Source: Candidatus Kerfeldbacteria bacterium
GTDB lineage: Bacteria; Patescibacteriota; Patescibacteriia; SBBC01; CAIJZX01
Direction: 5' to 3'
Length of the DNA stretch: 35,150 nucleotides
Assembly (NCBI GenBank): GCA_903825245.1
Contig: CAIJZX010000038.1
Span: forward strand, 1 to 35,150
Part shown: positions 21,447-26,249 of the stretch, in pieces
How the letters are laid out: each line of letters opens with the position of its first letter
How positions within the stretch are numbered: position 1 is the first letter of the stretch
Notes under the pieces: model-generated
Database searches by the model: none
What the model was told of the DNA's origin: nothing
Seen by the model: the letters and a program-made list of their open reading frames with translations, nothing else
Program-made: the position numbers and the translations under genes

Positions 21447-22435
21447 TGGTATCTGACGCCCAATTCGCTACAACCCTTGACCGATTGCTGAAACACAGCA
21501 AACGCGTGTTGCTGACCATGACGACGAGCCCTGACGGCGATAGTATCGGGTCGTTGCTCGCCATGCAGCACATCGTCCAGCACTACAAAAAAGAAGTGTT
21601 TCTCTTTTCCCCGGACGCGATTCCGCCGATGTTCGATTTTCTCATCCAAGGCCATCCGGTTATGCGGGAGATGGAAGCGTCGGTTCACGATTACGATGTC
21701 ATTATTATTTTCGATACCGGCGATATCAAGCGCTCGCCGTTGGTTGATGAATTGATCAAGCGCGATCCGCAAAAAACAATCGTGGTGAATATCGATCATC
21801 ACCCGACAACCATCGAGTATCAGGGACAAACGGCGGTTGATCACAATCACGTTGATGTGAACGCCAGTTCGACGACACAAATGATTCACCGAATAGCACA
21901 ACACTTACGCATTCCCTACAACCGCCACATGGCTACGAGCTTATTGACCGGATTGTTAACCGACACCGGACATTTTTCGAATCTTGGTACAACGCAAGAA
22001 GCGATGGAAATCGCCGCTGAGCTCATCGCGAAAGGCGCCGATCATCGGACGATTACCAACGCGACGATGCGCAATAAATCCATCGGAACGTTACAACTGT
22101 GGGGACGTGCGCTGTCGCGGCTGACGATCAACCGTTCGAGCGGCATCGTCTCGACAGTGGTAACGTTGCAAGACCTTGAAGAGTGCGGCGTTGATAGCGA
22201 AGCTACAACGGGAATTTCAAACTTCTTGAATTCTCTGTCCGAAGGAAAAATCGCGCTGGTGTTACAGGAAGAACCAGGCGGCGTTGTGAAGGGGAGTTTC
22301 CGAACTACCTCTAACATAAATGTCGCCACCATCGCCAAACAATTCGGCGGCGGCGGTCATGCCAAGGCGGCGGGGTTTAAGGTGAAGGGAAAACTGGTGA
22401 AGACGAGTCGGGGATGGAAGGTGGAGACGTTGTAA
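21446..22435 (+). CDS. nrnA: DHH/DHHA1 phosphoesterase, NrnA-like (nanoRNase / pAp phosphatase)
   Basis: 329 aa from ATG 21446; GTG 21407 is in frame but overlaps mini-ORF 2, and the family N-terminus fits the ATG. DHH metal motifs: SPDGDSIGS (28-36), FDTGD (89-93), IDHHPTT (116-122), and LLTGLLTDTGHF. DHHA1 domain with FGGGGHAKAAG near the end. NrnA-type enzymes degrade 2-5-nt RNA and dephosphorylate pAp in the cytoplasm. Position after infB-rbfA matches many genomes. The ATG has no Shine-Dalgarno of its own and lies 4 nt after a mini-ORF stop, so translation is probably coupled. Confidence 0.88.
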   Translation: MVSDAQFATTLDRLLKHSKRVLLTMTTSPDGDSIGSLLAMQHIVQHYKKEVFLFSPDAIPPMFDFLIQGHPVMREMEASVHDYDVIIIFDTGDIKRSPLVDELIKRDPQKTIVVNIDHHPTTIEYQGQTAVDHNHVDVNASSTTQMIHRIAQHLRIPYNRHMATSLLTGLLTDTGHFSNLGTTQEAMEIAAELIAKGADHRTITNATMRNKSIGTLQLWGRALSRLTINRSSGIVSTVVTLQDLEECGVDSEATTGISNFLNSLSEGKIALVLQEEPGGVVKGSFRTTSNINVATIAKQFGGGGHAKAAGFKVKGKLVKTSRGWKVETL

Positions 22436-22436
22436 C

Positions 22437-22530
22437 CACCCCACTCGCTTCGCTCGTCGCCCCTCCTACCGGTAGGAGGGGCGGATTCGTGATAACGAAT
22501 CGGGGTGGTGCGAGCGAAGCGAGTGGGGTG
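22437..22530. repeat. 94-bp nested inverted repeat between convergent genes
   Basis: Outer arms are 20 bp and perfect: 22437-22456 (CACCCCACTCGCTTCGCTCG) and its complement 22511-22530. Inside lie a perfect 22-bp palindrome (22460-22481, half-site CCCCTCCTACC) and a 6-bp hairpin ATTCGT/ACGAAT (22485-22500). It fills the gap from the nrnA stop to the DUF559 stop. It has the look of a REP/MITE-like element. Confidence 0.85.
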
Positions 22531-25337: not shown

Positions 25338-25370
25338 ATGCGGCGGTCGCGCTCAGCGCGACCGCCGCAT
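25338..25370 (+). terminator. Strong hairpin after clpP
   Basis: A perfect 15-bp stem (ATGCGGCGGTCGCGC and its complement) with loop TCA, 13 nt after the clpP stop. It is followed by GTTTGTGTT rather than a clean T-run, and TTTTT precedes it, so it could act as a terminator, a 3' stability structure or both. Confidence 0.65.
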
Positions 25371-25381
25371 GTTTGTGTTGG

Positions 25382-25494
25382 GTTGACCCAGCACTACAAT
25401 GACTAATTTGATGTTGTTCTAGAATTTGTATTTACCCACGAAAAAAATACAATAGCGCTGAGCTCAGCTCGTGTCATTGTGGTGCTGGGTTGAC
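25382..25494. repeat. 113-bp inverted-repeat element
   Basis: Arms at 25382-25403 and 25473-25494 match over CCCAGCAC-Y-ACAATGAC (16 of 17 paired bases). Inside are TTGTATTT/AAATACAA and the palindrome GCTGAGCTCAGC. The right arm ends in the -35 box of the next promoter. No coding frame; MITE-like or regulatory. Confidence 0.6.
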
Positions 25495-25518
25495 ATAAAC
25501 ACAGCACGAGCGTATACC
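25490..25518 (+). promoter_or_regulatory. Promoter of the structured leader and zinc-ribbon-like gene
   Basis: TTGACA (25490-25495), 17-bp spacer, TATACC (25513-25518). Expected start near 25525, leaving about 290 nt before the ATG at 25819. Confidence 0.75.
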
Positions 25519-25560
25519 GTATGTAACAGACGTACTGGCTTCTTTTTGTTATTCACCTTT

Positions 25561-25642
25561 GGGGCGCCCGGCCTCACACCTACGCAGGGTGGCGACCCCT
25601 GTGGAGGCCTCGGTCATCACGCTGACCGACAACCGGCGCCCC
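25561..25642 (+). ncRNA. Candidate riboswitch-like three-way junction RNA
   Basis: P1 is GGGGCGCC (25561-25568) with GGCGCCCC (25635-25642). P2 is GGCCTC (25570-25575) with GAGGCC (25604-25609), topped by CAGGG/CCCTG (25585-25589 with 25597-25601). P3 is CGGTCA (25611-25616) with TGACCG (25623-25628). Junction strands are C, T and ACAACC. All stems are perfect and properly nested. Downstream, a 12-bp hairpin with G-T pairs (25759-25788) and a small hairpin GACA-AGGAT-TGTC (25804-25816) that holds the ribosome site in its loop complete the leader. A TTG-started frame (25559-25783, 74 aa) overlaps it and cannot be excluded. No known riboswitch class recognised. Confidence 0.55.
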
Positions 25643-25818
25643 GCCATCGTTCCTTACATCCCACGCTTTGTGGGTCACCACCAACCTGGAGATCAGTTAT
25701 CGACCACATCGACAATAGCACCGTCAGATCGTGTTTCATGCGCTTATGCACATAAACCGACCATTACGTGTTGGGTCATGTGATGGTCTAACAAAACCCC
25801 TGCGACAAGGATTGTCAA

Positions 25819-26160
25819 ATGTTGAATCGGAATGGCAAAACCGCCGTTCTCAACGCTACACTAGTCGCTGCTCCTCGTGTACGTTTGAGCCAAGAGGAAA
25901 TCGATCGAATTCGGTTGATCGCCGAACGCGGCCGAAACATGGACTGGAACCTTGCCCCAATCATCATTGATGGCAAACCTCATTGCCATGTCTGTGATGA
26001 AGAGTATCCGATCTCCCGCTTCACCTTCAGTGTGCTGTTTTCCCACATGTGCTGTAGGTGTGCGCAGGTGGTCGAGGATCACGAGCCGCGTATTGTTAAG
26101 AAGCGTGGCTTCGGTGGCCATCCGGCCAGGACGTTTTCCGGCAGTGATGACAATCGCTGA
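25819..26160 (+). CDS. Small zinc-ribbon-like protein (113 aa)
   Basis: ATG 25819 with AAGGA 7 nt upstream. The first half is helical (RLSQEEIDRIRLIAERGRNMDW). The second half has a treble-clef/ribbon-like cysteine pattern: Cys56 and Cys59 (HCHVCDEEYP), then Cys78, Cys79 and Cys81 (HMCCRCAQ), 18 residues apart, consistent with one zinc ion. The tail is basic and Gly-rich (IVKKRGFGGHPART). Single gene behind a ~290-nt structured leader and closed by a terminator, so it is probably what that leader regulates. Role (nucleic-acid binding, metal sensing) unproven. Confidence 0.7.
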   Translation: MLNRNGKTAVLNATLVAAPRVRLSQEEIDRIRLIAERGRNMDWNLAPIIIDGKPHCHVCDEEYPISRFTFSVLFSHMCCRCAQVVEDHEPRIVKKRGFGGHPARTFSGSDDNR

Positions 26161-26177: not shown

Positions 26178-26206
26178 ACCGACGGTTATCATGGCGTCGG
26201 TTTTTT
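26178..26206 (+). terminator. Intrinsic terminator
   Basis: ACCGACG (26178-26184) / CGTCGGT (26195-26201), 10-nt loop, six T then CTTT. Confidence 0.88.
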
Positions 26207-26249
26207 CTTTCCCAAAAAAATATGCATAATGCCTTTTCATGGGCTAACC

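Follow-up and report, generated by a model that had tools for sequence, protein, structure and literature searches.

Within a 35,150-nt stretch of DNA (referred to here as the window), a contig of a 1.30-Mb genome the neighbour genes of which match most closely those of Ca. Kerfeldbacteria groundwater MAGs, a three-way junction close to the start of a putative 294-nt leader (approximate length) is a real and very stable predicted fold. The junction lies in an ordered set of sequence elements around a small ORF between clpP and rny, and similarly placed folded leaders are present in two related genera. The explanation favoured here, tentatively and at somewhat less than an even chance, is that of a lineage-specific, fast-evolving structured leader that would set mRNA lifetime and translation for a small zinc-ribbon-like protein.

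The genes at the locus are arranged in the order TrmB-like regulator, clpP, small-ORF unit, rny (encoding RNase Y), YmdB-like ORF and HU-like ORF, the names of the last two being assigned by inspection. A palindromic hairpin consisting of a 16-bp perfect inverted repeat (25338–25370, forward strand, as are all features of the unit) is the likely clpP terminator and forms the edge of the unit. The first-pass annotation placed a TTGACA-N17-TATACC promoter upstream of the ATG, and the sequence at 25490–25518 bears this out, with TTGACA at 25490–25495, a 17-nt spacer and TATACC at 25513–25518. This sigma-70-type promoter agrees with the consensus at 10 of 12 positions and was passed over by an automatic promoter scan because the scan requires T at the final position of the −10 box. 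The promoter and the ATG at 25819 define a putative 5' leader at 25525–25818, which contains a Shine-Dalgarno-like AAGGA (25807–25811, predicted to be partly paired) and is followed by the 113-codon ORF and by a 7-bp stem with a T run (26178–26207), which is probably an intrinsic terminator for this gene. Since promoter, leader, AAGGA, ORF and stem with T run occur in this order, the set has the appearance of an entire transcription unit for a single gene, with clpP on one side and rny on the other. The right sequence of these elements, with the AGG of the ribosome site predicted to be paired, speaks for a structured leader. From the sequence we infer the transcription start, the translation of the 113-codon ORF and any regulatory effect.

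The three-way-junction element occupies positions 25561–25642. Helix P1 is formed by 25561–25568 and 25635–25642 (8 bp, plus one outer G-U pair), P2 by 25570–25575 and 25604–25609 (6 bp), stacked on a 7-bp inner hairpin at 25583–25603, and P3 by 25611–25616 and 25623–25628 (6–7 bp). The 82-nt junction with nested stems that had been drawn from the letters was recovered as the minimum-energy fold. For the 87-nt stretch 25559–25645 the predicted energy is −50.8 kcal/mol, compared with a mean of −35.9 (sd 3.4) for dinucleotide shuffles, corresponding to a z of −4.4 that none of 300 shuffles reached. Within the full leader the helix pairs have probabilities of 0.80–1.0, with only the outermost G-U lower at 0.43. 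When 87-nt windows were tiled along both strands of the contig, 0.6% of 808 reached a z of −4.4, and the four strongest correspond to two palindromic sites (22447 and 25318), each present on both strands. That the fold surpasses dinucleotide shuffles and ranks in the tail of the tiled segments, and that its helices hold up in the full leader, favours a structured leader. Separately, no predicted fold of the window is as strong as that of a very long palindrome at 22396–22530 (−65 kcal/mol for 90 nt), which has a DHH-like gene on one side and a convergent ORF on the other.

The GC content of the junction element is 74%, compared with 48% for the contig, and this supports the main rival explanation, in which the fold has no function and is incidental to GC-rich intergenic DNA that was gained recently or is decaying (an ORFan or what was once coding sequence). 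This explanation is unlikely on balance, although it retains an appreciable share of the probability. None of the 300 shuffles of the same dinucleotide composition attains the observed stability, and promoter, Shine-Dalgarno sequence, terminator and two independent stable hairpins are all aligned in one direction; both points count against an incidental fold.

A long structured leader had been proposed ahead of the gene, and folding of the whole leader supports this, with z values of −2.9 to −3.5 relative to shuffles. The second of the stable hairpins, at 25759–25788, was annotated on the first pass as having 12 bp; these include two G-U pairs and enclose a 6-nt loop, and the hairpin is well supported by its predicted energy (−18.1 kcal/mol, z −4.25) and pairing probabilities (0.93–0.96). 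A further hairpin (GACAA-GGA-TTGTC), the loop of which was said to display the ribosome site, was not upheld, with a predicted energy of −3.2 kcal/mol, a z of +0.8 and a probability of approximately 0.11. Instead, the AGG of the ribosome site is predicted to pair with CCU at 25799–25801 (probability approximately 0.76). Overall folding of the 3' part of the leader (25643–25818) is at chance level (z −0.85), and the ORF region is also more folded than shuffles (z about −2.0 to −3.0); part of the excess folding is therefore local sequence background. Both observations count against a structured leader. No terminator was found inside the leader, neither after the junction nor after the 12-bp hairpin, and pairing probabilities for the full leader gave no clear anti-Shine-Dalgarno switch, which also counts against a structured leader. 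A candidate anti-Shine-Dalgarno sequence, UCCUU at 25652–25656, appears on separate folding of the 3' part and was rejected as a switch, its probability in the full leader being 0.0.

The 113-codon ORF (25819–26160) encodes two CxxC-type knuckles, C56xxC59 and CCxC at residues 78–81, and these cysteines are the only basis on which a zinc ribbon is plausible. The protein had no significant match in 95 relatives, GTDB contigs, IMG/VR, phages, plasmids, Pfam or the PDB. Profile searches for a zinc ribbon gave nothing in Pfam and a best match in PHROGs of E 0.044 (phrog_54, DksA-like), and no confident fold was obtained, the predicted structure (mean pLDDT 43) being too poor for searching. The ORF resembles small zinc-ribbon proteins (DksA-like or HNH-associated, with CxxC...CxxC) in its cysteine pairs, which are also present in the syntenic ORF of a related genome (G003, described below), and both ORFs make weak PHROG matches (phrog_54 for the former; the HNH family phrog_2255, E 0.02, for the latter). 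It differs from these proteins in the lack of a significant family match and in its low-confidence predicted structure. Any link to metal would depend solely on the CxxC...CCxC motif of an ORF that matches no database entry, and the evidence gathered contains no connection of the leader RNA itself to metal. Translation of the ORF is favoured by its start, Shine-Dalgarno sequence and terminator, and codon usage argues against an old native gene. The codon-usage score of −0.09 is below that of all 14 reference genes (0.11–0.39) and 1.6 sd above shuffles, with the opposite strand scoring higher at 0.16. This atypical codon usage and the lack of a homologue weigh against a structured leader, and the former is among the points in favour of an incidental fold.

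Searches for homologues of the leader RNA returned the leader itself. An Rfam scan gave no match in the leader at the gathering threshold and none overlapping 25525–25818 at E ≤ 10, in agreement with the earlier statement that no known riboswitch consensus fits. The covariance search proposed on the first pass was carried out with a junction model in 57 relatives, where the only credible match was the junction itself; one other match (G005, E 0.29) appears to fall inside a coding gene resembling ribonucleotide reductase and was discarded. At the DNA level, the leader matched itself and two short stretches among 381 genomes of the class, the latter located inside a ribosomal protein S1-like gene and another long ORF and taken as chance, and it matched nothing in phages and plasmids. 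Covariation could not be counted because no homologous leader was found and consequently no alignment exists. The absence of homologues at both the DNA and protein levels in these searches speaks for an incidental fold. Protein conservation of an overlapping 74-codon frame had been put forward as grounds for rejecting the RNA. A search for it gave weak matches only, with none in plasmids, and the two best were found on inspection to fall in wrong frames of other genes; that objection to the RNA reading therefore does not apply.

An undescribed riboswitch or protein-binding cis-regulatory RNA, the reading offered on the first pass, was also considered, with the junction as aptamer and the 12-bp hairpin and ribosome-site pairing as expression platform. 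Riboswitch aptamers rank among the best-conserved RNAs. The long leader, the compact junction, the lack of an Rfam match and the single gene downstream are all compatible with such an RNA, as are the folded leaders that two sister genera have in the corresponding position. However, no conserved loop or junction sequence was found in any relative, no switching partner for the Shine-Dalgarno sequence was found inside the candidate aptamer, the UCCUU described above is predicted not to pair with it in the full leader, and validated riboswitches do not typically have long perfect stems, as remarked for the ilvD motif (PMC8632094). A regulatory RNA of this kind is given a low probability, and as a riboswitch-like ligand sensor the leader is a candidate only. 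GC-rich intergenic regions have been screened as a source of structured RNAs (PMC8632094, PMC6429828, PMC8723152), and the leader shares with the orphan riboswitch candidates from those screens its GC-rich length, a stable junction and a single gene. Rare candidates in such screens likewise lack covariation support. The motifs reported there have at least a few sequence-related members, whereas the junction is one sequence and hence has no consensus.

The locus was retrieved from ten related genomes by means of RNase Y. The genes clpP and rny are adjacent in several relatives, and this retained order speaks for a structured leader, together with the folded leaders and small ORFs of G002 and G003, which represent the family's remaining two genera. 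The gap between the genes is variable, a point in favour of an incidental fold, measuring 83 bp in the more distant G005, approximately 450–580 bp in G013 and G014, 1.2–1.4 kb in G002 and G018 and 2.4 kb in G009, with the gaps of G002, G009 and G018 filled by unrelated ORFs. Neither clpP nor rny was matched in G001, a genome of the same genus. In both G002 and G003 a promoter, long leader and small ORF are located upstream of rny; the G003 contig ends short of clpP, so that its placement beside clpP is presumed. The leaders of G002 and G003 have z values of −4.8 and −3.2 relative to shuffles, and each contains a GC-rich multi-branched domain with a long closing stem soon past the promoter. Nucleotide similarity across the three leaders did not exceed shuffle level in the best local matches, apart from one 23-nt stretch (p 0.02), and no alignable helix layout common to the three was found; this dissimilarity counts against a structured leader. 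The G003 ORF contains CxxC...CNDC, and its similarity to the 113-codon ORF (BLASTP E 0.008 for the single pair, local shuffle p 0.04) is suggestive and lends weak support to zinc binding, while the G002 ORF has no similarity. Position and character of the leaders, rather than sequence, may be common to the three genera, in a comparison of three loci picked after the fact, the leaders being at most candidate orthologues. In the G002 gap (L106/L057), a hairpin that pairs CTCCT with the AGGAG ribosome site is followed by a 19-codon ORF that shares an ATGA overlap with the small ORF, a possible case of translational coupling.

An extension of these observations is that the clpP-rny gap of this family would be a slot occupied in every genus by a small gene and a large multi-branched leader peculiar to that genus, the shape being selected and the sequence fully turned over. 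This is a speculative and improbable proposal, and it is equally doubtful that such leaders would form a class set by shape and place rather than by sequence.

The −35 box of the promoter is carried by a copy of an interspersed palindromic repeat (CCAGCACYAC...GTGGTGCTGG) at 25380–25495, which has direct GTTGAC flanks, the right flank being the −35 box. Pairs of these arms, 36–123 bp in length, occur in approximately 14 copies on several contigs of this genome (G000) and also in G002 and G003, giving 27 paired copies across three genomes of the family. The flanks are 6-bp direct repeats, mostly GTTGAC and otherwise sequences close to it, and many copies supply, with their right flank, the −35 box of a plausible promoter. 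Left and right flanks are identical at 134/162 positions, compared with 121.7 after permutation (p 0.0002), and exceptions still match each other (CTTGAC/CTTGAC and TTTGC/TTTGC). As in miniature inverted-repeat elements (MITEs), there are many short copies, terminal inverted repeats and matching direct flanks resembling a target-site duplication, although the TTGAC bias weakens the duplication reading. The repeat differs from MITEs in that no partner transposase was seen, and its near-constant TTGAC-like flanks blur duplication with sequence preference. Among the matches, which come from fragmented assemblies, no two arms were noticed with a spacing that would accommodate a transposase gene. 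Integron attC sites were rejected on inspection, given that the copies are dispersed, pairing along the arms is nearly complete and the flanks are unlike RYYYAAC/GTTRRRY. The repeat looks like a small mobile element preferring, or retained at, TTGAC −35 boxes, and may possibly target or preserve such boxes in this family. In G000 contig C8 (L024, approximately 1553–1625), another copy is placed in frame where a prepilin-like gene (GAGFTLTE) begins, with the flank TTTAC on both sides. At approximately 55091 of G000 contig C33 (L113), a palindrome-promoter combination precedes a leader with a z of −3.9, a long hairpin early in its length and only short ORFs.

In the favoured explanation, a structured leader of the small gene, the junction would shield the 5' end of the mRNA from RNase attack, and the downstream pairing would partly hide the ribosome site and so tune translation. 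The adjacent rny encodes RNase Y, from which we infer a possible link to the shielding. A stand-alone small RNA made from the promoter, with the downstream ORF secondary or untranslated, would suit the weak coding signal of an ORF that has no homologue and the strong fold at the 5' end, but it is the least probable explanation given that no terminator follows either hairpin domain and that the Shine-Dalgarno sequence and terminator suit an mRNA.

In literature searches on structured RNAs from GC-rich intergenic regions and on Patescibacteria, no report of the element was found, and a perspective on the Patescibacteria treats riboswitches only as tools (PMC11665869). At present the leader stands as a single-genome candidate, and its value is in showing which genomes would permit a comparative covariation test. 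A function for the leader, if demonstrated, would make it a candidate regulatory RNA of the Patescibacteria, a group whose regulation has received little study, and an instance of a leader fold outliving its sequence.
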